A stretch of 34,080 nucleotides of DNA from a virus, in the IMG/VR virus record IMGVR_UViG_3300042898_000604, positions 1 through 34,080 of that record. The stretch is one strand, 5' to 3'. The notes beneath the pieces were generated by a model. The model was not told the origin of the DNA, searched no databases, and worked only from the letters and a program-made list of their open reading frames with translations. Positions within the stretch are counted from its first letter, which is position 1; each line of letters opens with the position of its first letter. A program made the position numbers and the translations under genes. Positions 3,911 to 25,725 of the stretch are shown here, in pieces.

Positions 3911-5692
3911 TTAGATTTGCATTGGTCCGCCTGGACCTCCGCCCGGAGCAGACGGTCCACCAGCAGCCGGAGAGTCAGCTCCTACCGGTCCAGCAACATC
4001 AGGACCTTCTTCGGGAGCTTCATTGTTTTCAATTTCGTCTGCGGTTTCGAAATCAGTCTCAAAGTCGCCAGAACTAATTCCGATGTTTCTCAAATCAGAG
4101 CCAGCAGCTTCCATTTCAACCTTCTCACTGTTTTCTTCTTCCCAAAGCTTTTCGTTCTTCTTGATTTCTTCTTCGGTTAGTCCTAAGAATCTTTCCATAG
4201 CAAATCTCTTTGACATATAGGGAAGCGATTCCATGCTAGTGAATGTACCAACTCTGCTATTGTCTAGTTCAGCTTGGCGATATGCAGCGAAGTTTTGTGG
4301 AGGATTGAAACAGATTTGGAACAATCCAGTGTCAATATTGAATCCTCTCCAGCGTAGGAACAACTTGAATTCTTCATCTAACTTGAGAGCAATATAGTTC
4401 TGCAAGCGTTCGCAGTACTGATTGAATCTGAATTCCTGAATCATCGCAGTACCAACACGACCATCACTCAATGGAGTGCTATTGTCATCTGGTCCAGTTG
4501 GTAGATATGATGACGGTACACGAAGACCTCGAGCAAGGCGATTGTTGAAGTATTTCAAGTCATCAATTTCGCCTAAGTTTTGTCCGCCCGGAAGAACTTC
4601 AACACTTGAACCACGGCCTTCTGCGGTAACTGGGAAGAAGTAGTCTTCGTTCATTGACAGTGGATTGTATGATGCGTCAACTACGCTTGCGCCGCCATAT
4701 AGTGAAGGGATTCTGCGCTGGTGAATTTCGTTCTTGACTCTTTCAACAAATGCCATAGCCATATGACTAGGCATATTACCGACATCAATCTTGAACATTC
4801 TGCGTTCAGGAGCACGTTGTACACGATAGATTAGAACAGCGTCTTCTAATAGTTCCTTCTGCTTATAGACCTTAAAGATGTTCTCTAGAATCGACTGTCC
4901 GAAAGGCCAGAATCGGTCAAGCCCTTCAGTTAGTGACAAATGAACAATATGCTTTGCGTCTATCGCAGATTCACTCTGTCCTAAAGTGAAGCGTGATCCT
5001 GTGGTATTATAAGGCATTGCCGGAGTTGTGTAAGGAGCGCTACCGCCACCTCCACTGCCCCCTAATCCAGTTGCTGGATTAGCTGCAAAGTCAGTATTCG
5101 TCTTTTGTGCAACACTAAGATTCTGTAAGTTAATATTGATATCTTTTAGGACATACTGTTCAGGCTTCTTGCCTTCACTTTCATTAACGATTACCTTAAT
5201 AACCTTAACCATGTCTACCCAGTACAACTTGAAGTTTTCTGGGTCACGCACAAATACATGATCTCCGTATTTTACAATGTTACGAAAAATCTTAAACATA
5301 CGAACATCAAATTCGTTTAGTTTGCACCACTGTTGCAATTGTTTGCCCAATAGTTCTACTTCGTGAGGAGTAGGTTCTTCTTTAAACTCAAAACTGAATG
5401 GAGTTTTGTTATGCTCATTTCGTTGTGTGGAGAATTCTGCAATAATGTCTAAGCAAGCGTTAATTTCAGCATCAACATCCATCATTTCATATTGATTATA
5501 ACGCTCGATTCTATTAGGGTGCCCTGTATAGACTTCTGGAAGTCTGGACATGTAGTTCTTGTATCCAAACTCAGTGTTACTGTAGCCGTCGGATGAACCG
5601 CCTTGACTATTCCAAGCCCCGCTATTACTGTTAATACCAGAGATAGGGCTAGAAACACCACTCTTATTTAAGAACTTCTTTTTATATGACAT
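3911..5692 (-). CDS. 20: Portal vertex protein gp20
   Basis: This gene encodes the dodecameric portal through which DNA is packaged and to which the neck attaches. The 593-residue product is somewhat longer than T4 gp20 (524 aa). Recognisable gp20 blocks include YNQYEMMDVDAEINACLDIIAE near residue 65, LEDAVLIYRVQRAPERRMF followed by IDVGNMP near 280, and the region containing EDYFFPVTAEGRGSSVEVLP followed by GGQNLGEIDDLKYFNNRL near 350. Residues ~200-225 carry a Gly/Ser/Pro-rich insertion. The last ~50 residues form an acidic then Gly/Pro/Ala-rich tail (ending GGGPGGPMQI), which accounts for much of the extra length. A late promoter octamer lies in the 34-nt gap upstream. Confidence 0.95.
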   Translation of the reverse strand: MSYKKKFLNKSGVSSPISGINSNSGAWNSQGGSSDGYSNTEFGYKNYMSRLPEVYTGHPNRIERYNQYEMMDVDAEINACLDIIAEFSTQRNEHNKTPFSFEFKEEPTPHEVELLGKQLQQWCKLNEFDVRMFKIFRNIVKYGDHVFVRDPENFKLYWVDMVKVIKVIVNESEGKKPEQYVLKDININLQNLSVAQKTNTDFAANPATGLGGSGGGGSAPYTTPAMPYNTTGSRFTLGQSESAIDAKHIVHLSLTEGLDRFWPFGQSILENIFKVYKQKELLEDAVLIYRVQRAPERRMFKIDVGNMPSHMAMAFVERVKNEIHQRRIPSLYGGASVVDASYNPLSMNEDYFFPVTAEGRGSSVEVLPGGQNLGEIDDLKYFNNRLARGLRVPSSYLPTGPDDNSTPLSDGRVGTAMIQEFRFNQYCERLQNYIALKLDEEFKLFLRWRGFNIDTGLFQICFNPPQNFAAYRQAELDNSRVGTFTSMESLPYMSKRFAMERFLGLTEEEIKKNEKLWEEENSEKVEMEAAGSDLRNIGISSGDFETDFETADEIENNEAPEEGPDVAGPVGADSPAAGGPSAPGGGPGGPMQI

Positions 5693-5726: not shown

Positions 5727-8700
5727 TTAGGCACTAGCTTTTTTCAAAATCTTCTTAGTAACATCGTTGCTTGTTTCTAATGCATCTACCATTTGTCCTA
5801 ATCTATAGTTTAGCTCGTTCATTGTACTAGTGTGAGCTTTCATGACAGTTTGCATTGAATTTGTTATTGATGTTGCTGCATTTTGCATAGGCTGATTGGT
5901 TTCATTAATTGCTTGTAGAGCCTTACTAGTTTCTTTACTTACCAATTGAATTAATGAATCTTGAATTTTTTTGTTCTTATCAATCATTTCGTCCTTAACA
6001 CCAGTCAAATTATTATCCATCAATCGTGACATCGAACTTATCATTTTAGCAGGATCTAGTTTATCATTACTAATAGTACCGAGCATTGATTGAACTTTTT
6101 GCTGGATGTTTTGTAGTTCAGGATTAGATTTCATAAAACTATCATAAGCTTTTTTATCGACTGGCTTACCATTAACAGTATATTGTTCAGACGATTTATT
6201 CATTGATCTAGTAAATCTATTGTCTAGAGGAACAACCATCTCGGTTCCGTGTAGCTCTACTGGATATCCGCTATCTGGACCTTTTAGAATGCCGCCGCGC
6301 TCGGCGCCAATCTTACTGTTTCTTCCCATGCTACCTGAATATTGGAAGTGAATATGATTATGGTGTTTTCCGTCAGGAGATTTCCACAATGTATGATAGC
6401 CTGCAGCAGCACCGGCACGAGCAAGTTGATCAAACATTGGACCCCATTTAGGATCATTAGCTTCAACTATTCCTCCTGGAGCGTTAACGTCAATAGCAGT
6501 ACCGTCATAGTGGCCGCCAGTTTTAGAGTGTGAGCCGGGTGCTGGATGTTTACCATCAAAATGTATGTTTTCGTCAACACGCAACTTCATACCTTGTAGG
6601 GCTCTACCAAGAGGAACAATACTACCTGAGGATGCGGCCGGAGGTAATCCAGGCATTGCACCACCAGGCATTGCACCAGTAGCATCTTTCACCGCCCTAC
6701 CAAAATCACTCACTGCACCAATTACACTGTTAGAGTTGGAGCTTATTGCTGATGCATACGATTCTACTTTACCAAGAGCTTCTGTTCCTAAGAATCCTTT
6801 CCCGCGAGTGATTTTTTGTCCTGCAATTTGACTTGTTGCAAGCAGTGCTGCATCCTGTTGATTTAAGGCTTGATCTTTGCTAAATCCAAGCTTTGATCTC
6901 ATTTGACCTTCATTTTGTTTCATAAACCAAACTACAACCTGAGAACCTACTTCAGGATCCATAACTAAATCAGGATTTTCAACTAGTCTATCATCTCCAT
7001 AAATATCACGGGATGCTTTTGAATAGTTTGCCCTACCCGTCAACCCTATTGGGCCTCTTCCTCTAAACAGCCATCCGTCACCTGGTTTGTTGTTTCCACC
7101 TCTATCCCCGTACATTTTATTTGCAAATGCTTTAGGGTCTGCTTTCAGTGCTGTGATTTCAGCATCCGACATTCCTTTAGATTTAGTCTTAAATATATTT
7201 CTAATTCTAGAATTGTCAGTGTTTGCGTAACCTGCAATGTCTTCTTCTATATTGAAGTTACCGCCTGATTCTTTCATAACATTGCCTAGTACAGCGTTAA
7301 TATAATTTTGATCAGTGAACCCTGCATTTTTTAAAGATTGTGAGATTTTGTCTAAATTTCCTCTCACATTTTCAGGTATAGCAGCATTATAAGATTGTGA
7401 AGTTCCACCAGGACCTGCAGGCGCATTCTCTGAACCAGGACGATCACGACCTGTCAAAGCCTTGAATAATTCGTCTGATGCAGACATTAAATCTATAAAT
7501 GCTTTATTCGTACTGTCTATGTTTTTCTTAAATAGACCCATTGAATTGTTTAAATCAGTAAATGACTGCGCTTGTTTTTCTCGTTCTTCTTGTGATTGCT
7601 GCAATGGTTCTCCAAACAGTTTTCTATTTTGGTCGATTTGATCAGTAATCATATCTTCATTTTGTTGCATAGCCAACTCTTGAGGAGTTAATCCTGTACC
7701 CGGCATGCCAGCCATTCCAGGAATATTAAGTTTGTATCCTTCTTTCCAGTCTTTATTCTTTAGATTTGGATTTGCCTTTAGTAAATCTTCATGACTCATT
7801 CCATACTGTTCGGCTATTTTTCTTAGGGTATCGCCCTTCTTGACTTTATATTCATTATTAAGGTTTTCTTGTCCTGGAATGTTTAATTGAGCGCCTTCGT
7901 AAATCAAATCTTTATTTGTGATTTGTTTATTTGCTTCCATCAGTGCTTCTACAGTAGTACCGTACTGTTCAGCTAGCTTAGATAAGGTGTCACCCTTTTG
8001 AATTGTATAGCCTGCTTGTGCAGCTTTTTCCTTCTCAGAGGTACCGGGTTCTTGAGCTACTACAGGTGCAACCTCAGGTGTTATTCCATATGCAGCTAAT
8101 TGTTCCGGAGTCATCTTCTCAACACCGCCAACGGAAGAAGCAGAATTCAATATAGCTAATGAATTGGCTATAGTCTCTTTATTAGATTCTTCCAAGCTTT
8201 CTGCTGCGGATGTTAGTTTTTCTGCTGCTTCCGCAGTTTCAGTTGTAGGTGAATTGGGTTTTCCAGTACCAAACAATTTGTCACTATTTTGATAAAGTCC
8301 GTATAGTCCTCCTAATACACCTCCGATAGCGGCGCCTGCTGCCGTACCGAGTCCAGGAATAACACTTCCGATCATTGCTCCGGTACCTGCGCCAGTTACC
8401 GCACTAGAACCTACTGAAAGTGCGCCTGCTGTTTTAGTATGGCCGGCTTCTTCTGCTTTTTCACTTCCGTAATCTAATGCCATGCCGCCTAATAAGCCGG
8501 CTAGCCCTCCAGCAGCACCTTTAGCAAATCTAAGAAGCTTGCCGCCCTTGCCGCCGCCACCACCAAAGCCTCCGCCGCCTGACATAGATTCTCTCATGTC
8601 TGCTCTAGCAGCGGCATCGCTTGCCTTTGCTTCTCTAAGATCGGCAGCAGCAGCTTTCATGCTTGCGGCTGCTTCTCTCATGTCTGCGGTTGCGGCTCTT

Positions 8701-10682
8701 TGGCTAGCGGCAGCTTCTCTCATGTCAGCAGAAGCGGCCCTTCTACTAGCTGCCGCTTCTGTTCTATCTGCTGAAGCTGCCGAACCACTTGCTCTAGCTT
8801 CTGCTATGTCGGCTGCTCTTGCTCTATTACTTGCTGTTGATTCTGACCTGTCTGCTGAAGCTGCCGAACCACTTGCTCTAGCTTCTGCGGTGTCTGCTCT
8901 AGCGGCATTACGGCTAGCACTAGTCTGTTGCTTCATTGCAGCGGCAGATTCTCTTAATGCTTTAGTGAAGTCTTTTTGTGCTTCTTTTGCAGCGACCGAT
9001 GCTCGCCATTCTTTCCATTTAGCAGCGGCCAATACCCCGGTTGCAACTGTAGCTACTGCTAAACCAGCTTTCAGCGCAATTAATCCATATCTCATAGCAT
9101 CTGCCGCTAACTTATTAAGGTCAGTTGCATTTAGTAGTGCTGCTGCTTTCTTGATACCATCAATTAAGAATTCTTGATATTTTTGCTGTAATGCTCTTTC
9201 TGCGGATCTCGCTTTTTCAATGGCGTCATCCATCGGAGAACCTGCTTTGCGTTCTTCCTGGTTCTTCTTAGCAGCCGCTAATCTTTCTTCGGCAGACTGA
9301 CCAAAGGTGTCATTCAGTCTACCTATTGAATCTTTTAATAACCCAGTACTAGCAAGACTTTGTTCGTCCATATGCAATGCTGCTTGGCCCAAATTAGTAG
9401 ACATTTGACTTTGCTTAGCGGTTAGGTCATCTGCTGATTGTGCAGCAACCTTCATCCCGTCTGCGCCGCGCTGGAGCTGGGTTCTTGCTGTATCTAAATC
9501 TGCTCCTAAAACTGCTAAAGGTGCGGAAATATTATTATAAACACCGGTTCTCATGTAGTTCATGTACAGTGCTGTTTGTTCAGGGCCAACAAGATTGGAC
9601 ATAGTGTCTCTATAGTCGGCCATAGACTTCATTTTAGCTTCTAATTCAGCGGCTTCAGCGAATTGTTTATTATCTCTTAACCTCTTAAGCTCAACCAAAT
9701 CCTGACGCTGAGCAATCTTTTCTTGCATCACCGCTGCTGCAATATCTTGTTCGGCTCTTAGTGCATCTGCTTGTTTACCGGTCAAGCTTGATAATGCATT
9801 TAAGTTTTCTGCATATTTTAATGATTCTTTTCTTAGTTGGTCTATAGATTTATTCTGTGATAGATACGCCAAACCTGAAGACTGTTGCTGCTTAATGTAA
9901 GTAGCCTGCATTTCAGTAAGTTGTTCTTGGGAAATACCCATTTTACCAAAAGCTTGTCTAGTTTCTTCAGATACATTAGCCAGTTCCATAAACTTGACAG
10001 CGCCATCGCCGGCAGTTTTACCTAAAGTAATAAGACCTGTCCCTAGTCCCTGCGTAATTTTGCCAAGGGTTTGAATGTTTTCGCCAAAGTATTTGGCATC
10101 ATTAGCTAATTTTAATAGACCTTCAGATGATGTGGGTAATGCACCTGCTGTTTTAACAGTTTCGTCTCGTAAGTTAACAATTGCATCAGTTAGTTTTAGC
10201 GCATCACCTACGACCTTAGATGCAATTTGACCAGCGACACCTACAATTGCACCTAAAGCTTGACCGACAATAGGTAAAGAACTTGCTAATCCTTGGGCGG
10301 CACTTGCGGCGGCGTCTACAGTACCGCCGTACTTACTAAATCCCTTTTCAGCACTCAGTAATGCTCCGCCCAAAGAACCTAATACATTAGAAGTGCTACT
10401 TACCGCTGCTGAAAAAGCAGTAAGTGTCATCTGTGATGCTCTAGCCGCTTTATCCCACTTTTCACTAGATTCCGCTGCTTTAGCTTGAGCTTCTGCATAC
10501 TTGGTATTAGCTTGTTCGTTGGCACCCATACCTTTAGCAAAGCCACCTGCTGCGGCATTAAGTTTGCCGCCAGCGGTTTTCATTGCACCCATTTGAGCAG
10601 CCATCATTGAATTTTGCTGGGCCAGCAATTCGTTCATCATACGAAGCTGTTCTTCTAGTTGTGCAATTACTTCAGGATCCAT
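5727..10682 (-). CDS. Tape-measure-like virion protein with two LysM domains, a GH19-type lysozyme and an M15-type peptidase
   Basis: This 1651-residue protein is likely a tail or injection protein. In order it shows: a helical Ala/Gln-rich N-terminal part (1-585) typical of tape-measure proteins; eight 14-residue Ala-rich repeats (~589-699); a Gly-rich hinge (SGGGGFGGGGGKGG); a glycine-zipper hydrophobic stretch (~745-795); LysM 1 (~890-935, YTIQKGDTLSKLAEQYG); LysM 2 (~942-988, YKVKKGDTLRKIAEQYG); a GH19/lysozyme-like domain (~1130-1255, with KESGG and GRGPIGLTGRANY); a zinc D,D-peptidase-like M15 domain (~1375-1446, with GGHYDGTAIDV and HNHIHF); then GGILKGPDSGYPVELHGTEM followed by VVPL, common near tape-measure C-termini; and a helical tail. 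T4's tape measure gp29 has only about 590 residues. The gene is divergent from gp26 and shares overlapping late promoters with it. The virion location and tape-measure role are inferred; the domains are visible. Confidence 0.8.
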   Translation of the reverse strand: MDPEVIAQLEEQLRMMNELLAQQNSMMAAQMGAMKTAGGKLNAAAGGFAKGMGANEQANTKYAEAQAKAAESSEKWDKAARASQMTLTAFSAAVSSTSNVLGSLGGALLSAEKGFSKYGGTVDAAASAAQGLASSLPIVGQALGAIVGVAGQIASKVVGDALKLTDAIVNLRDETVKTAGALPTSSEGLLKLANDAKYFGENIQTLGKITQGLGTGLITLGKTAGDGAVKFMELANVSEETRQAFGKMGISQEQLTEMQATYIKQQQSSGLAYLSQNKSIDQLRKESLKYAENLNALSSLTGKQADALRAEQDIAAAVMQEKIAQRQDLVELKRLRDNKQFAEAAELEAKMKSMADYRDTMSNLVGPEQTALYMNYMRTGVYNNISAPLAVLGADLDTARTQLQRGADGMKVAAQSADDLTAKQSQMSTNLGQAALHMDEQSLASTGLLKDSIGRLNDTFGQSAEERLAAAKKNQEERKAGSPMDDAIEKARSAERALQQKYQEFLIDGIKKAAALLNATDLNKLAADAMRYGLIALKAGLAVATVATGVLAAAKWKEWRASVAAKEAQKDFTKALRESAAAMKQQTSASRNAARADTAEARASGSAASADRSESTASNRARAADIAEARASGSAASADRTEAAASRRAASADMREAAASQRAATADMREAAASMKAAAADLREAKASDAAARADMRESMSGGGGFGGGGGKGGKLLRFAKGAAGGLAGLLGGMALDYGSEKAEEAGHTKTAGALSVGSSAVTGAGTGAMIGSVIPGLGTAAGAAIGGVLGGLYGLYQNSDKLFGTGKPNSPTTETAEAAEKLTSAAESLEESNKETIANSLAILNSASSVGGVEKMTPEQLAAYGITPEVAPVVAQEPGTSEKEKAAQAGYTIQKGDTLSKLAEQYGTTVEALMEANKQITNKDLIYEGAQLNIPGQENLNNEYKVKKGDTLRKIAEQYGMSHEDLLKANPNLKNKDWKEGYKLNIPGMAGMPGTGLTPQELAMQQNEDMITDQIDQNRKLFGEPLQQSQEEREKQAQSFTDLNNSMGLFKKNIDSTNKAFIDLMSASDELFKALTGRDRPGSENAPAGPGGTSQSYNAAIPENVRGNLDKISQSLKNAGFTDQNYINAVLGNVMKESGGNFNIEEDIAGYANTDNSRIRNIFKTKSKGMSDAEITALKADPKAFANKMYGDRGGNNKPGDGWLFRGRGPIGLTGRANYSKASRDIYGDDRLVENPDLVMDPEVGSQVVVWFMKQNEGQMRSKLGFSKDQALNQQDAALLATSQIAGQKITRGKGFLGTEALGKVESYASAISSNSNSVIGAVSDFGRAVKDATGAMPGGAMPGLPPAASSGSIVPLGRALQGMKLRVDENIHFDGKHPAPGSHSKTGGHYDGTAIDVNAPGGIVEANDPKWGPMFDQLARAGAAAGYHTLWKSPDGKHHNHIHFQYSGSMGRNSKIGAERGGILKGPDSGYPVELHGTEMVVPLDNRFTRSMNKSSEQYTVNGKPVDKKAYDSFMKSNPELQNIQQKVQSMLGTISNDKLDPAKMISSMSRLMDNNLTGVKDEMIDKNKKIQDSLIQLVSKETSKALQAINETNQPMQNAATSITNSMQTVMKAHTSTMNELNYRLGQMVDALETSNDVTKKILKKASA
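8585..8918 (-). repeat. Eight in-frame 14-codon (42-bp) repeats in the tape-measure-like gene
   Basis: About eight consecutive 14-residue units follow the pattern A-(S/R/T)-A-D-x-(R/A)-E-(A/S)-x-A-S-x-x-A, for example ASADMREAAASQRA, ATADMREAAASMKA and ASADRTEAAASRRA. The repeat is diverged at DNA level but strict in register and spans residues ~589-699. The 14-residue (two-heptad) period suggests a long straight helix or coiled coil. It stops abruptly at a Gly-rich hinge. Confidence 0.85.
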
Positions 10683-10773: not shown

Positions 10774-11598
10774 ATGGAAAATAATCCACTAAGACAGTAT
10801 TTCAGAAGACCAGCAGTATACTTAAAGTTACCGAGCGGTGGTCAATCCTATGAAAAAGGAGTAGTAGACCTTACCGATACTGAGGAACTTCCAGTATACC
10901 CGATGACTGCAATCGATGAAATCACTGCTAGAACCCCTGACGCCTTGTTCAACGGAACGGCTGTTGCAGAATTAATTAAGAGTTGCATTCCTGCTATTAA
11001 AGACCCTTGGAAGATCAATAGTGTCGATTTAGATTCAATCTTAATTGCAATTAAAGCAGCGTCCGGCGGCGAAAATCTAGAACTAGATTCTATTTGCCCT
11101 GCATGTAAAGAATCTGCTACATATCAGATTAATCTTATCGGTATTTTGGCTTCATTGAAGCCAGGCGATTATGACAAGCCATTGGAAATCGGTGACCTTA
11201 AGATTAAGTTTAAGCCACTCAGTTATAGAGAAATGAATGCCGGTGCGATGGGACAATTTGAAGTTCAGCGTGCCTTCATGAGTCTTGAACTAATTGAAGA
11301 TGATGATGAGCGCAACACTGCAAGCCATCAGGCACTTGAAAAAATCACGCTACTTACTATGGATCTAATCGCAAATACGATTGAACATATCATTACACCT
11401 AATGCAACAGTGACAGAAAAAGAATTTATTCTTGACTTCTTGAAGCATTGTGATAGAAATGTGTATACCGAAGTTCGTGACTACAACACTATGTTAAAGC
11501 TTGAAACAGAAATTAAGCCATTAACTATTGAATGCACCAGTTGCGAAAACAAGTATGAACAACCATTCACGCTAAACCCAGCAGATTTTTTCGCATAA
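10774..11598 (+). CDS. 26: gp26-like tail/baseplate assembly protein (zero-frame product)
   Basis: This 274-residue product matches the gp26 family of T4-like phages, annotated as a baseplate hub subunit or assembly factor (T4 gp26 is 208 aa). The N-terminus (MENNPLRQYFRRPAVYLKLP, then SGGQSY) and two CxxC pairs, C108/C111 (CPAC) and C254/C257 (CTSC), are visible; the four cysteines probably bind zinc. An excellent GAGGAGAA ribosome binding site precedes the ATG. A late-promoter octamer lies 50 nt upstream. The 3' end carries a slippery T-TTT-TTC sequence three codons before the stop, from which a second frame opens (see next entries). An assembly-chaperone role, rather than a structural one, is inferred from that arrangement. 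Confidence 0.85.
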   Translation: MENNPLRQYFRRPAVYLKLPSGGQSYEKGVVDLTDTEELPVYPMTAIDEITARTPDALFNGTAVAELIKSCIPAIKDPWKINSVDLDSILIAIKAASGGENLELDSICPACKESATYQINLIGILASLKPGDYDKPLEIGDLKIKFKPLSYREMNAGAMGQFEVQRAFMSLELIEDDDERNTASHQALEKITLLTMDLIANTIEHIITPNATVTEKEFILDFLKHCDRNVYTEVRDYNTMLKLETEIKPLTIECTSCENKYEQPFTLNPADFFA

Positions 11599-11627
11599 GG
11601 CTTCTGGCGTCGTCTCCTGAGGCCGTT
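11586..11627 (+). promoter_or_regulatory. Candidate -1 programmed ribosomal frameshift signal
   Basis: The heptamer T TTT TTC (11586-11592) is in the correct phase of the gp26 frame (GAT TTT TTC GCA TAA). A stem-loop follows: 11597-11604 (AAGGCTTC) pairs with 11619-11627 (GAGGCCGTT, G11625 bulged, one G-U pair) around a 14-nt loop. The GC-rich core of the stem begins 6 nt after the heptamer, normal spacing for a stimulatory structure. The stop codon TAA lies inside this spacer and the base of the stem. Confidence 0.75.
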
Positions 11628-11822
11628 AAGAACCTAATTGAACAATTCGAAAAAGACGTAGAAAACATTAAGACGAATGCGTTATCCCTCTCATGGTATA
11701 TGAGAGGGGGCGTATCCTATGAGGATATCCTCAATATGTCTTCGTTCGAGAGACAAGCAATATCTGACCTCGTAGAGAATAATCTAGAAGTCACTAAGAA
11801 ATCTAACTTACCATTCTTCTAA
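11592..11822 (+). CDS. -1 frame extension of gp26 (gp26-GT-like fusion tail)
   Basis: This frame is open from the TGA at 11556 to TAA 11820-11822 and contains no ATG, GTG or TTG until ATG 11700, yet its codons look coding throughout. From the slip site it encodes 76 residues: RIRLLASSPEAVKNLIEQF, then EKDVENIKTNALSLSWYMRG, then GVSYEDILNMSSFERQAISD, ending LEVTKKSNLPFF. A -1 slip at 11586-11592 would append this to gp26 residue 273 to give a 349-residue fusion, analogous to the lambda G/GT tail assembly chaperone pair. The alternative is a 40-residue protein from ATG 11700, but no ribosome binding site supports it and the coding signal begins far upstream. Confidence is high that it is translated, moderate for the mechanism. 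Confidence 0.75.
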   Translation, partial: RIRLLASSPEAVKNLIEQFEKDVENIKTNALSLSWYMRGGVSYEDILNMSSFERQAISDLVENNLEVTKKSNLPFF

Positions 11823-11859: not shown

Positions 11860-11944
11860 TATCCCTTTACTCACTTCGTTCGTTTCGGTATAGTTTTTAA
11901 CGGTAATAGTATTTCTTTCTTATGGAATATATATTGCCGGTTTA

Positions 11945-12290
11945 GAAGCCATGGTAGTGCTCCTAAGAGGCACTACCAAGATTTGGACATTGCCATGGCC
12001 TGTCATCCTGTGTTGTCTATTCCCCGACTAACTAGCTCGTATCGCTGTTAATCGCTACCGGTTGCCCTGTAAAGTTTTCTGGGACTGTAGTGAGACTTCC
12101 GTCTCTGCAACGCATGTTCTGTGACTTCAAGACAAAGTATATCACAGACTCATTTAGGGTTCGCCTACCTAACGAGAGCCCTATCGGTATTCCATGACCT
12201 CACGGTCACGCATACTCCAGATCCGGACGCATACATCAGTGGTGCGGCCTCAAGGAGGTTCTTACGAACATATCAATGTAGGGTTCTGTA
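11945..12290 (-). ncRNA. Candidate structured RNA of unknown class
   Basis: The stretch 11823-12293 between convergent genes has no credible ORF and higher GC than its surroundings, and it is packed with hairpins. Read on the minus strand, three close with GNRA tetraloops: GTTC-GTAA-GAAC (12269-12258), TGACC-GTGA-GGTCA (12208-12195) and GAGAC-GGAA-GTCTC (12105-12092). The plus-strand loops (TTAC, TCAC, TTCC) are not stable classes, so the minus strand is favoured. Further helices are TAGGG..CTCG with CGAA..CCCTA (12183-12155), TCTGTGA with TCACAGA (12148-12118), and a 9-bp TGGTAGTGC stem (11978-11952) with GCCAT/ATGGC pairing around it. It lies directly downstream of the nuclease stop and could be co-transcribed with it. 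I do not recognise the class. Large phage RNAs such as GOLLD or ROOL come to mind, but no signature was confirmed. Confidence 0.5.
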
Positions 12291-18711: not shown

Positions 18712-21600
18712 ATGGCAAATAACAATGACAAACAACAAAGATTAAACAAAGCACTTGCTGATCTAAATGCAGGTGGAAGCGTGTATTTGAGTAAGACCAG
18801 GCTTGTAAGAAAAATAGACGGCAAATTCGTTGTCTTTAACCCGCAAATTACTGGATTTGGTGAACTTCAAGCAGGTAACGCTACACTAACAAAGAAAAAA
18901 CTAGCCGCAGCCATTGCAGCTGGTAAAGCCAGTATAATCTCGCAGGCCCAACTTTCTGCTGGACTAAACCCTACTTCGTCTGTGCCAAAACCAGTTGGTA
19001 GTACTAAGCCTAAGCCAAAACTCAAAGGCAGTGCCGATGATGATAAGGGTAAGAGTAAAAAGAAGCCTGAAGCAAGCAAAATTAAAGTCAGAAAAGAAGC
19101 TGACCCTAATTTAAGTCCCGGCAAGAGACTTAAAAATCCTTTGGGAGCGTTGTCAAGCTACAACTATCAATTATCTTTGTATATGATAACTCCTGATGCA
19201 CTTGAAGTGTTTAAAGAAAATGGATTCAAAGACATTAACAAATTGGGAGTTTTATACTCTAATAAGATAGGACCTAATGTAGCGAATGATGCAGTGTCGG
19301 CAGGCGCATATATCGTAGCACAGTCCGGTGGCGTAAATGCACAAGAAACGCGGGCACCGAGTTTTGGATTTGATTATGGCATTGATAATCTATCATACGA
19401 AATTGTTGGTCAAAAAGAGTCAGGCACTGCTGCGGCAAACTACTCATTTAAATTTACTATAATTGAACCATATGGATTTAGTTTTATCAGTAATTTGAAA
19501 AGAGCATCCGATGCTATACAAGATTATAATAAGCGGTTAGTTAAGAAACGAGCAGATAAAGCAAAAAAGAAAGCTGCCGCCCAAAATCAACGAACTGCTC
19601 AGAAGCAAGGGCCAAATGCCGGTGCCCGTCAGAATCAAAATACGCAAACTCCTGCTGATACTAACGGTGGTAAGGGGTCATCTACCGAAACTCCGCAAAA
19701 TGCATCTAAGCAATTATTTGTTTTAGGTATTAGATTTTATGGGTACAATGCTTCAGGTAAACCAGTAAGAGGCACGGACACTACGGCTGCTGTTAACCTA
19801 ATGAGCAATGTTATGTACAGAAATGGTAAGATAGTCGAACAACAAATTGATCCGGGGAATAATTCATATGCATTATTTGAAAGATATTTTCCAATAATGA
19901 TAACCGAAATGAAAACTTCAGTTGACGGTAGAGAAACAAGATATGATATTACAGCAGCGCCTCATTCTCAAGCTGCTATGGGATCAAAAAGAGGTATGGT
20001 TAATGTCGGGTTCGAAATCACAGCATCGACTGTAGGGGAAGCATTAGATAAGCTAGTGACTAATCTAAACAAAGAACAAAAAGCTATGAATGATAAAACT
20101 GGTTCAGGATATGCGTATGACATAAAATATGCAAGTAATTTTGATGCTAATAGAATTAGAAATTCTACAATTGTTAGTAAAGCCGATTTAGACAAATATA
20201 AGTGGCCAGGCTCTGGCGCTAAAAATACAAAAGAAACTAACGCAAACACTGAAACTAAAAAAGGACAGAAGCCTAAGAATAATGGTAGAACAATTTCGAT
20301 TGATAAAGGTCCTATCATTCAAGCAATTAACAAAATTATTGCACAAAGTTCTTTCTTAGAAGGTGCTATGAAAACAGTGTTTACTACCGCGATTGAACCT
20401 GACCAAGATAAGACGGGTCTTCCTGAGCTAGATAAGTCTGGTAAAAAAACTATCGAATGGTTTCATGTCACTCCGGACATTGGAAATATGTCATGGGATG
20501 AAAATAAAGCCGACTGGGTGTATGATATCAATTATATTTTGAATGTCTACGATACACCAGTAATAGACACGGCTTATGCAAATCCAGGTAAAAAATACTA
20601 TGGCCCAATGAAAAGATATGAATATTGGTATTCAGGAACAAATACTGAGGTACTTAATTATAAACAAACACTTGATAATAACTATTATACTACTTTCTTA
20701 GATGGCAGTCTTGGAAAGGGAAAAGACGATAAAGACGCAAACAAGAATGGCGGACAAAACGCACCAAACGCTAGTGGAGGAACAGGCAATAACGCTGGAA
20801 CAAATACCCCGTTAGTACAAAATCAAAAGACAGGGCAGCCTACGCAAGGAAAAGCCGGTCTTGCAATGGAAGCACAGAACAGTTACCTAACATCATTATT
20901 TGACCCAACTGCTCAAGCGACAGCAGAAATACAAATTTTAGGAGATCCCGATTGGCTAATGTCTACTACTAATTCAGTAACTAACGATAAAGGAGAAACT
21001 GTTGCTAGTTTGGCACAAAACGAAAGCCTCGTGTATAATAAATTTTACGGTAGTGACGGGGTTAGTATTAATCCCGGCGGAGGACAAGTATTCTTTGAGA
21101 TAGACTTTAAAGAAGCAATTGACTACAAATCGGGAGGACAAAATATTGCAATTGGTGAGACCGGTGGCGTAACTGGTGCACCAGGCACAATGTCAATCAA
21201 CAGTAGTATTTTATTTTGGAAAGATCCAAAAAGTATTAGTAAATTAGTAAAAGGAATAAGTTACTCGCTAACTAGGTGTAAAAATACTTTTTCCGGTGGG
21301 GTATTTAAACAAACATTATACGCTACTATGAATACATTCGGTGATAGTGCAAGTAATGATGACGGCAAAGCAAGAGAAAAACCTGCACAACGAACCGGCT
21401 CTGGACCAAATAAAGGTAATAGCAATGCTACTACAAATAATACAGGATTAAAGGCGGCACAGGCACCTGCTGCTAAACCGCAGAGCAGATCACCCTCAGA
21501 ATCAGTGCCGTTTGATGGTACTCGTGTGGGTGGCCGCACCCCCGCTAATGCAGTGCCGTTTGACGGCGTACCCAAAAAAGCACAACCCAGAGAAACTTAA
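18712..21600 (+). CDS. Large baseplate-module structural protein of unknown assignment
   Basis: I do not recognise this 962-residue protein as a specific T4 product. By position, between gp53-like and gp5-like, it could be a hub component (T4 gp27 place) or a tail-tip protein. It has a small basic N-terminal domain (1-90), a Lys/Pro/Ser-rich linker (95-135), a globular domain (~140-275) starting NPLGALSSYNYQLSLYM, an Ala/Lys/Gln-rich linker (~278-325), a globular domain (~330-460), a Lys-rich linker (~500-525), a domain (~530-670) with the segment WFHVTPDIGNMSWDENKADW, a Gly/Asn/Thr-rich linker (~680-715), another domain (~720-880), and a low-complexity tail. The tail ends with two copies of VPFDG. 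The ribosome binding site is weak, consistent with coupling to the gene 8 nt upstream. Confidence 0.65.
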   Translation: MANNNDKQQRLNKALADLNAGGSVYLSKTRLVRKIDGKFVVFNPQITGFGELQAGNATLTKKKLAAAIAAGKASIISQAQLSAGLNPTSSVPKPVGSTKPKPKLKGSADDDKGKSKKKPEASKIKVRKEADPNLSPGKRLKNPLGALSSYNYQLSLYMITPDALEVFKENGFKDINKLGVLYSNKIGPNVANDAVSAGAYIVAQSGGVNAQETRAPSFGFDYGIDNLSYEIVGQKESGTAAANYSFKFTIIEPYGFSFISNLKRASDAIQDYNKRLVKKRADKAKKKAAAQNQRTAQKQGPNAGARQNQNTQTPADTNGGKGSSTETPQNASKQLFVLGIRFYGYNASGKPVRGTDTTAAVNLMSNVMYRNGKIVEQQIDPGNNSYALFERYFPIMITEMKTSVDGRETRYDITAAPHSQAAMGSKRGMVNVGFEITASTVGEALDKLVTNLNKEQKAMNDKTGSGYAYDIKYASNFDANRIRNSTIVSKADLDKYKWPGSGAKNTKETNANTETKKGQKPKNNGRTISIDKGPIIQAINKIIAQSSFLEGAMKTVFTTAIEPDQDKTGLPELDKSGKKTIEWFHVTPDIGNMSWDENKADWVYDINYILNVYDTPVIDTAYANPGKKYYGPMKRYEYWYSGTNTEVLNYKQTLDNNYYTTFLDGSLGKGKDDKDANKNGGQNAPNASGGTGNNAGTNTPLVQNQKTGQPTQGKAGLAMEAQNSYLTSLFDPTAQATAEIQILGDPDWLMSTTNSVTNDKGETVASLAQNESLVYNKFYGSDGVSINPGGGQVFFEIDFKEAIDYKSGGQNIAIGETGGVTGAPGTMSINSSILFWKDPKSISKLVKGISYSLTRCKNTFSGGVFKQTLYATMNTFGDSASNDDGKAREKPAQRTGSGPNKGNSNATTNNTGLKAAQAPAAKPQSRSPSESVPFDGTRVGGRTPANAVPFDGVPKKAQPRET

Positions 21601-21612
21601 TAGGAAAATAAA

Positions 21613-24600
21613 ATGGCAGAAGACGTTTTTAAAGCTACAGGACCGCTAAAGTCAAGTAAGCCCAGCGCAGGTGGCGGAAGTACTTTAGAGTATCCAGTAA
21701 TAGGGGTTGTCAAGGACAACATTGACCCTACACGCTCGGGCAAAATCAGAGTACAACTTGAAGGTGCAACCAACAGTCAATCAGATAATGCTGATGGTTG
21801 GAAAACTGTACAATATCTCAGTACTTACTTTGGTATGGTTAAACCAACTGCCGGTCAGTCAGGCAATGGCGATTATGTAAGCAACCCAAGTGCATATGGT
21901 CAATGGCAAAGCCCTCCTGATATCGGTACTAAAGTACTGTGCATCTTCGCTGAAGCAGATCCTAGTAGAGGATTTTATATAGGTGCTATTCCTGAACCAG
22001 AAGCACTACAGATGATTCCTGCTATTGGATGCAGTGACAATGTAGTACCGAATGAAGGAGAAGCACAAGGATTAGCGGGCGCAACTAGGCTGCCGGTAAC
22101 TAGCATTAACACAAACAACAAGGCACAAGCAGACAGTACCAATTACTTAGATGCTCCTAAACCAGTGCATAGCTACACGGCTAGTATCATGAGTCAACAA
22201 GGAATCATTCGTGATCCTATTCGCGGTCCTATATCATCAAGTGCTTCACGAGAAGCAGTAAGTCGTGTCGGATGGGGAGTAGCGACTCCGGGCCGCCCCA
22301 TTATGGAAGGCGGGTACAACGACGAAAACTTACCTGAAAACTTAGACAGTAAAAATCAAGAACAATTAAAGGTCACTGCCCGCAGAGGTGGACATAGTAT
22401 CGTTATGGATGATGGCGATATTATTGGTCGTGACCAGCTCATCAGAATTAGAACAGCACTAGGTCATCAGATTATGATGAGCGATGACGGTCAAACACTA
22501 ATGATCTTACACAGTAATGGTCAAAGCTTTATTGAATTGGGCAAGGAAGGCACCGTCGATATATTTTCTACCAACTCATTCAATGTGAGAACACAGGGCG
22601 ACATCAACTTCCACGCTGACCAGCACATCAATTTTCATGCCAGTGAGAATATGAATATCCAAGCAAAAAATCTTCACATTAATACCGAAGAAGATTTTAA
22701 AATGCGTTCTGGACAAAACTTGCAGCTATATTCAGTAGAAAACTTTACTGTAAAAAGTTTAGGTGCGGCGGCTATTAAAGCAGGCGGGCAAGCAAGTTTT
22801 GCAAGCTCAGGAATGACATTTATTAATGGATTAAAGGTAAACTTAAACACAGGTAAATCTAGTGTTAACCCAAAGAAAGTTCCCATCATTACTCTTATCA
22901 CTCAAACTGATACATTACATGATGAGCAAAAAGGGTTCATCGCTGCACCGGGTAAGCTACTTACGGTTACTACAAGAACACCGGCCCACTATCCTTGGAC
23001 TAATGCAGGTCAAGGGGTTGATGTCAAGAGTACACTAGATGCTACAAAAAGTCTTCCGGTAACACCGTCGAGTAGTGTTCAAAAAGCCAATCAAGAAGGT
23101 CTAGCATCAGGCGCTATTGCACCTGCTATTGCAACTGTTGCATCTGCGCCGGATACTAAAACAATATCTAAGTCTATGGACAAGACTGTTACTAATGCAG
23201 TTATGGGTAGCGTTGCTACTAGTGCTGCAACTGGTATTGCTAAGAAAGCTGTAACGTCAGGCGCTGCTATTGTTAAATCAACCGGTGGTGTAATTTCAGG
23301 CGAAGGCAATATCGTCGCTGTAGGTACATATGCTCAAACTCCTACTCAGCTTGTTAACGCAAATATATTAAAGCCGGGTGCAGACACACTTATTAATGGA
23401 TTGGCACAACGAGCAGGAGCTACCATTGAAAGTATTATGCCTACGCAACTCTTCACCGGTAAGTCTGGCGCAGTAGATCTAAAGTCTTTCATATCAGATA
23501 CCGCATCACAGACTACAGCCGTTATTACAACAATGCAGAAAGCTCAAAATACTCTGGGCAAGATCGGCGCACTGACCGGCAAAGAAGCATCGACTCAAAC
23601 AGCAGGAATAGTTGCAGCCGCAGCCACAGTAGGTCTTACATCCACTATAAATGCAGTTAAGAGTATTTCAGGTGTAGCAACATCAGCGGTCAACAATATT
23701 CCTGGTTCATTATCAGCTACGGTGTCCGGCGCCTTAGGCTCAGCTACTTCAGGCATAACTTCAGAGGTTAACAAAGTTACTGGACAAATTACAAACGTTG
23801 CCGGACAATTAACTGGCACGCTGGGTCAAGCAACTAACGCAATTGCTGCAATCGGTGCAGGAGCAGCCGCAGCTGGACTAGCAAATAAACTAGGCGGTCT
23901 CGGTGGCATAAGCAATTCTATTAAGGGCCTTAGTAAGGGTCTCGGTGGGCTTAAGGGTCTTGGTGGCAAACTTGGTGGATTGTTCGGCGGCGGCGGAGGC
24001 GACGGTCCTTCGTTCACTGATCTAGTAGAATCAGTTAAGGGACCTGCTGGCGCTGCATTCACATCTATCAGAGACTCACTGAAGCCATTACAAGCCGGAG
24101 TACCTCAGAATCTTACTGCAATAGCTAAAGCTTCGGCGGCAACTATTGCAGGTATATCAAGTAGCGCAAGCGGAATAGCCGGCGTCGGTGATCAACTATT
24201 AAAGAGTTTTGTCGACCAAAACAGTATCACTTCTATTACTGACCTTAATGAACTAATCGATAATAATACTGTTGCCGGAATTACTGGATCATTTAGACAA
24301 ATAAAAGCTCAATTAGGATCAGTAGGGGATAGCTTATCAAGTCAGTCTGCTGATTTAATAAATCAATTTGGTGCCCTATCAACTAACACAGGGGGCATTA
24401 ATATTGATTTATTGTCTCAGTTTGGAGGAAATGCAGTTTCTACTGTGACCAGTTTAAGCAAAGCGTTAACTAATACTCCAAACTTAATTAATGGAATACC
24501 TGATAATTTAGGATCGATAGTGAATCCTATGAACACTCTGAATAATATTTTTAATGATATCAATACTGATGTCACTGGAATAAGAAGTACATCACCCTTA

Positions 24601-25725
24601 GTTCCATCTAATATTGAAAATACAATTACCGATATCAATAATGCAGTAAAAGACATAAGTGGTATTGCAGGTGCTGCATCTGCTATTGCTAAGGGGGATA
24701 TGACAGAATTAAGCAATGCTGCTAACGCTATCCAATCGGGTGCAAGCGCAGCTATGTCATCTGCATTGGCTAGTGGTATTAACAATTTACCAGGTGGAGC
24801 AAGAGCTATTTCTGCCGTCATGAATAATGCTGAAGGCGCCATTAACAGCTTACCGGGGACGGAGATGTTAGGAGACCTGGTTAAAAACTTACAGACCTCT
24901 GCTATTAACGAAGTGAGTAAGACTGTTGATGGAATAACAAATTCAATTAATAGCAAATTAGGCGGAGTATTAGGTAAAGAAGGCGGACTTACTAATCTGA
25001 TATCATCGGCATTACCTTTAGGTAAAGCAGCAGGATTATTGTCAGGGCTGTCAGCATTGGGTGCAGGCGGACCAGCTAAGGTCAAACTACCTACAATAAG
25101 TTTCAATACGTTTGATAGATTGGGAGTAGATTCTCAAGTTAAGACACTCTTGAGCAATCCTAAAATTCCAATACCTAACCTTGTCGGAGAAATCAAAGCG
25201 GGAGTGGTTAATCAGGTAGAACAGTTAATTAAGAAGAATAAAGACGCATTTAAGATTTTTGATGAGCTAGAAAACTGGGATCAAAAAATCAAAGAAGCAA
25301 CTGACAAATTATTTGAAGCAGAATCTAATTTCCCTGCCGGAGATAGAGGAATAGCATCAGCACAGGGTATATTAGATTCCATATTGAATGATTCGGAATT
25401 AGTATCATTACGCAAGAAAGCAGAATCGTTTGGTGAAAACGCAGTAGATGATGTTAGATCATTGATGTCATCTGCAAGTCAAACGGCAACAAATATGCTT
25501 AACAGTGCTAATTTAGGAAGTGCGGTTAGTACAATAAAAGCCAGTGCAATGGAAGTCATGCAGCAAACCAATAATAACCCAACGAAGAACACCGTGAAGT
25601 CAATCGCTGGTCAGGGTTCAACTGCAATTACACAGTTACAGGCTAGATCATCTTCTTCGCAGACAGATATCAATAATTCTATTGCAGGAATTATAGGACC
25701 ATCTGACAACACTACTTTCATATAA
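21613..25725 (+). CDS. 5: Baseplate hub spike protein, gp5/VgrG-like, without a lysozyme domain
   Basis: The 1370-residue product begins with a gp5/VgrG-type OB-fold domain (~28-135: YPVIGVVKDNIDPTRSGKIR, WQSPPDIGTKVLCIFAEAD and FYIGAIPEPEA). It continues with GHSIVMDDGDIIG near 258 and a stretch of short beta-helix repeats (~325-385, INFHADQHINFHASENMNIQ) that should form the membrane-piercing needle. T4 gp5 (575 aa) carries a T4-lysozyme domain between the OB fold and the needle; none is visible. The C-terminal ~900 residues are Ala/Gly/Ser-rich and mostly helical, with a Gly-rich segment (~756-797) holding a run of five Gly. TAGGAAAA precedes the ATG. The gp5 identity is good; the tail's function is unknown. 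Confidence 0.85.
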   Translation: MAEDVFKATGPLKSSKPSAGGGSTLEYPVIGVVKDNIDPTRSGKIRVQLEGATNSQSDNADGWKTVQYLSTYFGMVKPTAGQSGNGDYVSNPSAYGQWQSPPDIGTKVLCIFAEADPSRGFYIGAIPEPEALQMIPAIGCSDNVVPNEGEAQGLAGATRLPVTSINTNNKAQADSTNYLDAPKPVHSYTASIMSQQGIIRDPIRGPISSSASREAVSRVGWGVATPGRPIMEGGYNDENLPENLDSKNQEQLKVTARRGGHSIVMDDGDIIGRDQLIRIRTALGHQIMMSDDGQTLMILHSNGQSFIELGKEGTVDIFSTNSFNVRTQGDINFHADQHINFHASENMNIQAKNLHINTEEDFKMRSGQNLQLYSVENFTVKSLGAAAIKAGGQASFASSGMTFINGLKVNLNTGKSSVNPKKVPIITLITQTDTLHDEQKGFIAAPGKLLTVTTRTPAHYPWTNAGQGVDVKSTLDATKSLPVTPSSSVQKANQEGLASGAIAPAIATVASAPDTKTISKSMDKTVTNAVMGSVATSAATGIAKKAVTSGAAIVKSTGGVISGEGNIVAVGTYAQTPTQLVNANILKPGADTLINGLAQRAGATIESIMPTQLFTGKSGAVDLKSFISDTASQTTAVITTMQKAQNTLGKIGALTGKEASTQTAGIVAAAATVGLTSTINAVKSISGVATSAVNNIPGSLSATVSGALGSATSGITSEVNKVTGQITNVAGQLTGTLGQATNAIAAIGAGAAAAGLANKLGGLGGISNSIKGLSKGLGGLKGLGGKLGGLFGGGGGDGPSFTDLVESVKGPAGAAFTSIRDSLKPLQAGVPQNLTAIAKASAATIAGISSSASGIAGVGDQLLKSFVDQNSITSITDLNELIDNNTVAGITGSFRQIKAQLGSVGDSLSSQSADLINQFGALSTNTGGINIDLLSQFGGNAVSTVTSLSKALTNTPNLINGIPDNLGSIVNPMNTLNNIFNDINTDVTGIRSTSPLVPSNIENTITDINNAVKDISGIAGAASAIAKGDMTELSNAANAIQSGASAAMSSALASGINNLPGGARAISAVMNNAEGAINSLPGTEMLGDLVKNLQTSAINEVSKTVDGITNSINSKLGGVLGKEGGLTNLISSALPLGKAAGLLSGLSALGAGGPAKVKLPTISFNTFDRLGVDSQVKTLLSNPKIPIPNLVGEIKAGVVNQVEQLIKKNKDAFKIFDELENWDQKIKEATDKLFEAESNFPAGDRGIASAQGILDSILNDSELVSLRKKAESFGENAVDDVRSLMSSASQTATNMLNSANLGSAVSTIKASAMEVMQQTNNNPTKNTVKSIAGQGSTAITQLQARSSSSQTDINNSIAGIIGPSDNTTFI

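Follow-up and report, generated by a model that had tools for sequence, protein, structure and literature searches.

A probable -1 ribosomal frameshift at the end of gene 26 and a putative short/long tail assembly chaperone pair in T4-related phages

The gp26-family gene of an uncultivated T4-related virus and the open frame that overlaps its end most probably encode a pair of tail assembly chaperones, a short one (gp26 itself) and a long one (a 349-residue fusion), the latter being made by -1 ribosomal frameshifting in the manner of gpG and gpGT of phage lambda. This reading, to which we assign a probability of about 0.93, is drawn from sequence comparison. The DNA concerned, referred to here as the window, is the whole stretch of 34,080 nucleotides of the IMG/VR record IMGVR_UViG_3300042898_000604. 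A preliminary description of the window had proposed a G/GT-like pair, and the proposal fits the conservation of the locus, the homology of the added domain with the C-terminus of T4 gp51 and, as far as citing papers convey its content, a 2022 paper on the tail assembly chaperones of T4-like phages (Vladimirov, Gautam and Davidson, Virology 566:9-15).

The device is a known one. In lambda, a minor long form (gpGT) arises from a -1 frameshift near the end of the short tail gene (gpG); the window would use the same device with a different slippery site, and no sequence similarity is claimed. For T4-like phages, a short chaperone with a longer form carrying a C-terminal extension had already been proposed in 2022, as far as the citing literature conveys it, and the locus in the window is a further example. 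One citing paper (PMC10885494) attributes to some T4-like phages a short gene accompanied by a longer, fused one, while another (PMC12846349) refers to poly-T slippery sequences as known in their genes for the short chaperone (TAC-N). The latter also describes, for phage Adele and the Vandenendeviridae/Andersonviridae, a conserved poly-T at the end of TAC-N and a -1 frame open in all genomes; these are other phage families, with the motif GTTTTT as against TTTTTTC in the window. The stimulatory hairpin and the comparison of gene copy numbers presented below may be new, or may already be part of the 2022 proposal.

The gp26 locus and the proposed slippage

The features of the locus and of its upstream neighbours are as follows:

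3911-5692, minus strand: T4-type portal gp20 (PF07230, E 7e-102)
5727-10682, minus strand: 1651-aa virion-type protein, candidate tape measure/client (Pfam/PHROGs: two LysM, GH19-like, glycine zipper)
10774-11598, plus strand: gp26-family gene, putative short tail assembly chaperone (TAC-N), 274 aa (PF12322 T4_baseplate; phrog_150 baseplate hub)
11586-11592, plus strand: slippery heptamer T TTT TTC, phased for tandem -1 slippage
11592-11822, plus strand: -1 frame domain (TAC-C), 76 codons and stop TAA, homologue of the gp51 C-terminus
11596-11598, plus strand: 0-frame stop TAA, end of gp26, by direct reading
11599-11635, plus strand: candidate stimulatory hairpin, conserved outer helix GGCTTCT / AGAAGCT, about 6 nt past the heptamer

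Direct reading of the 3' end of gp26 gives ...GCA GAT TTT TTC GCA TAA, with the heptamer in phase at 11586-11592, exactly where the preliminary description had placed it; the heptamer and the stop are separated by one sense codon (GCA), and not by the three codons stated there. In the -1 frame, codons run uninterrupted from 11592 to 11819, the stop codon lies at 11820-11822, and the earliest start codon of any kind past the heptamer is the ATG at 11700, in agreement with the earlier account of a 76-codon open frame with no start before that position. The predicted fusion comprises 273 + 76 = 349 residues, with the junction Asp-Phe-Phe-Arg-Ile-Arg.

According to the proposed mechanism, a fraction of the ribosomes on gp26 would slip back one base at T TTT TTC, aided by the hairpin located about 6 nt downstream, and would bypass the gp26 stop in the -1 frame, adding 76 residues. 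Two products with 273 residues in common would result, mostly gp26 (274 aa) together with the 349-aa fusion; we infer from the sequences both the occurrence of slippage and its efficiency. The common part would probably coat the tape measure, and the extra domain would probably recruit a tail-tube or baseplate protein.

The assignment of gp26 is based on matches to PF12322 (64.8 bits, E 1.2e-17; Pfam cut-off 24.5 bits) and to phrog_150 (E 2.1e-19, PHROGs). Homologues were detected by tblastn in 61 GenBank phage records, every one below 60% identity and mostly from jumbo phages (e.g. RaK2, GAP32, 121Q, PA5oct and Atu_ph07), and the same type of search located the -1 domain adjoining gp26 in jumbo phages. 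T4-like genes surround gp26 in the window, including those for the portal gp20, a late sigma factor, an SbcCD-like pair (gp46/47) and the baseplate wedge, and the block portal - structural protein - gp26 has the same order in RaK2, GAP32, 121Q, MIJ3 and Phosso. Pfam and PHROGs searches with the 76-residue domain alone returned nothing convincing. AlphaFold modelled gp26 and the helical C-domain with fair confidence; Foldseek comparison of both models with the PDB produced no significant match and no solved chaperone fold, and the best hit of a PDB sequence search was an unrelated chain at E 0.035.

Conservation of the site and the weighing of rival explanations

The alignment of related gp26 loci, which had been suggested as a check of the frameshift, finds the heptamer, the hairpin and the -1 frame conserved and the start codons not conserved. 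Two samples were used. The first comprised 22 IMG/VR relatives retrieved by means of the gp26 protein sequence, together with other phages taken from annotated entries, making 35 distinct loci. The second, an independent sample, comprised 120 IMG/VR contigs pulled by a DNA pattern in the non-coding region about 0.5 kb downstream; it was chosen without using the heptamer site, and a few of its contigs overlap the first set. Both gp26 and the second domain lie within the stretch in 108 of these 120 contigs, which represent 85 distinct sequences.

Among the 35 distinct loci, the site reads TTTTTTC in 31, TTTTTTT in two (XacN1 and CM1), TTTTTTG in one (RL38J1) and is absent from one (Cygsa01). The heptamer is present in phages such as RaK2, GAP32, 121Q, Munch, MIJ3, Atu_ph07, Phosso, a cyanophage, phiAS5 and IC12. 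In all 108 contigs of the independent sample the -1 frame encodes the second domain and TTTTTTC is in phase, and all seven bases are invariant over the 85 distinct sequences. The recurrence of the heptamer goes beyond chance: of the 38 Phe-Phe codon pairs at other places in these loci, only about 2 are spelled T|TTT TTC, as against 31/35 and 108/108 at the gp26 site. The position of the gp26 stop shifts from 1 to 11 codons past the heptamer, while the heptamer itself stays. In XacN1 and CM1 (loci L034 and L035), the run is longer (T TTT TTT), the gp26 stop comes 10-11 codons later and the hairpin signal is weak.

The -1 frame had been said to look coding, and the relatives bear this out. It is stop-free in 14 of 14 near relatives, with several stops in each of the other two frames; differences by codon position amount to 0.38/0.24/0.61 in these relatives, and the median dN/dS is about 0.2 (27 of 91 pairs, those with unsaturated dS), as expected under purifying selection. 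The domain of the near relatives has a conserved motif around WYMRGG.SYED.LNMS..ER.

The hairpin was examined by means of codon shuffles preserving the -1 frame protein. Just 3' of the heptamer, the mean z is -3.9 over the 85 distinct sequences, with 98% of them below -1.5 (-0.9 to 0 elsewhere), and -3.6 to -4.0 in the 14 near relatives (-0.1 to -1.6 elsewhere). The outer helix is paired in 92.9% of cells, counted on the first alignment, and its pairs have undergone compensatory changes, GC to AU, UA to CG and CG to UA among them; with 14 sequences alone, covariation against shuffle controls is only suggestive. RNAalifold found no consensus structure for the hairpin on the first alignment, and folding of the window sequence alone gave no significant hairpin, the signal appearing only in the comparative, protein-preserving test. 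The window itself has the weakest signal of the 14 near relatives (z -1.9, with 9 of 200 shuffles equally stable). Its conserved helix pairs GGCTTCT (11599-11605) with 11629-11635, with one mismatch, while an alternative 3' arm, GAGGCC at 11619-11624, pairs with GGCTTC at 11599-11604. The latter stem, which had been singled out in the preliminary description, is indeed the minimum-energy fold of the window, but the relatives conserve the same 5' arm with the later 3' arm. Beyond the near relatives the hairpin signal varies, being strong in Atu_ph07, MIJ3 and the cyanophage and absent in others; not every member of the family has the downstream RNA structure, and it is weaker in the window.

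The second frame is improbable as a small gene in its own right, one whose translation would be coupled to that of gp26, or re-initiated at its stop or just past it, through an ATGA or TAATG overlap. An ATGA does stand at the gp26 stop in 10 of the 85 near-relative sequences, and a separate small ORF is annotated at this place in 121Q, Phosso, Atu_ph07, Kaldavass and XbC2; nevertheless, a start close to the gp26 stop is lacking in the window and in most relatives, and in MIJ3 the whole -1 frame past the heptamer is devoid of ATG, GTG and TTG. The sole possible overlapping start position reads ATA in 26 of the 85 sequences, CTA in 22, TTA in 14, ATG in 10, GTA in 8, CTG in 2, GTG in 2 and CGA in 1. 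A start codon which drifts so freely beside a heptamer which never changes is what is expected of a frame entered by slippage, and not of a gene needing its own start, and the ATGA of some relatives is regarded as incidental. A separate gene would also leave the hairpin unexplained, and T4 has the homologous domain joined to a gp26-like one, as gp51. The pattern that had been named as refuting the frameshift, a second frame with its own start after loss of the heptamer, was found among the 35 distinct loci in one distant lineage only, Cygsa01. In that Pseudomonas phage (locus L045, 1807-1982) the heptamer is absent and the second frame begins with the ATG of a TAATG overlap, an arrangement which supports a separate gene there; the Cygsa01 lineage may have switched to a separate, coupled gene.

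Still less probable is the production of the fused frame by slippage of RNA polymerase, instead of the ribosome, on the T6 run. All but one of the distinct loci have a homopolymer of at least six T, with longer runs in XacN1 and CM1; but six T is short for transcriptional slippage, which counts against it, the run ends as T6C in 108 of 108 near relatives with no drift in length, and the conserved RNA structure some 6 nt downstream is the mark of ribosomal -1 frameshifting. Finally, the idea that the -1 frame is a decayed gp26 C-terminus, detached from the gene by a mutation or a sequencing error that shifted the frame, could draw on the slight departure of the window from the conserved hairpin. 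It has a negligible probability and is refuted by the recurrence of the arrangement, with a -1 frame under purifying selection, in 108/108 contigs of near relatives and also in distant jumbo phages.

T4 genes 26 and 51 and the candidate client protein

The frameshift-made pair has a counterpart in T4, whose genes 26 and 51 encode homologous proteins, likewise one short and one with an extra C-terminal domain. In hhalign comparisons, the profile of the fusion aligned with that of gp51 across both domains (E 1.9e-12), and the C-domain profiles matched the gp51 C-terminus with E 5.8e-6 (near-relative and jumbo type) and 5.1e-12 (cyanophage type), whereas the same profiles against the N-terminal part of gp51, used as negative controls, gave E 0.12-0.13. 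Moreover, T4 has two separate PF12322 genes, in line with the statement of the preliminary description that genes 26 and 51 are separate there, gp51 consisting of a gp26-like part and an added C-terminus. The frameshift phages have one: jumbo, cyano and Rhizobium phage genomes carry one PF12322 gene each, the copy of SCTP-2 being below threshold, and a 267-kb near-relative contig also has a single copy; the window is a fragment, for which a single copy is assumed by analogy. At the end of T4 gene 26 there is no slippery heptamer of the TTTTTTC kind. The gp51 homology and the copy numbers thus indicate that T4 encodes the long form separately, while the other phages would make it by frameshifting. 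The abstract of the 2022 study by Vladimirov and colleagues is said to name genes 26 and 51 and to describe frameshifting as conserved in several T4-like groups.

Read in this way, the lambda-style device of two chaperones would be widespread in the T4 supergroup, and T4, often quoted as an exception, would employ a second gene for the same end. For annotation, the small 'hypothetical protein' past gp26 in many jumbo phages would form the C-terminal part of a fusion, and the 'baseplate hub' gp26 would be better read as a chaperone.

The genes G and GT of lambda lie directly upstream of the tape measure gene, on the same strand. In the window, in contrast, the candidate client is encoded by the adjoining, divergent gene. 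In its N-terminal part, the 1651-residue product matches proteins of 720-734 aa encoded beside gp26 in 121Q, RaK2 and GAP32, and it resembles a structural protein into which cell-wall domains have been inserted. It is far longer than its counterparts of 720-832 residues in RaK2, GAP32, 121Q, MIJ3 and Phosso. The preliminary description had taken it for the tape-measure-like client of the pair; the pair is supported, but the choice of tape measure fares less well, as the 1651-residue protein has no detectable similarity to T4 gp29 and another protein in the window also has a weak match of this kind. The 1651-residue protein is kept as a candidate for tape measure and client. The other protein, of 1370 residues (21613-25725), matches a baseplate hub/tail lysozyme family (phrog_13211) in its N-terminal part and, weakly, a tape-measure family further on (phrog_305, E 7.6e-5).

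A structured RNA downstream of the chaperone locus

The 471 nt past the frameshift frame contain one additional feature, about 340 nt in size:

about 11935-12275 (core 12055-12220), best modelled on the minus strand: conserved, strongly covarying structured non-coding RNA, between convergent genes

Its consensus energies are -83.4 on the minus strand and -61.6 on the plus strand, as against about -13 for column shuffles, and compensatory changes occur in 14 of 29 pairs, some with four pair types (25 sequences). No credible match was found in Rfam for the region 11935-12275, no DNA match in 50,697 phage records, and no match of a covariance model in T4 or in the jumbo phages tried; the RNA is apparently undescribed so far. 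It is present in at least 120 IMG/VR contigs, and in 105 of 108 contigs it lies at most 600 nt from the chaperone domain. It is likely to represent a new class of RNA belonging to this uncultivated lineage of T4-related phages; nearly all contigs have it next to the chaperone gene, and one contains a second copy. In that contig, of 102,786 bases (the one behind locus L017), the two copies (L173 and L174) lie at 21529-21679 and 59345-59521, so that the RNA is not tied solely to the chaperone locus.
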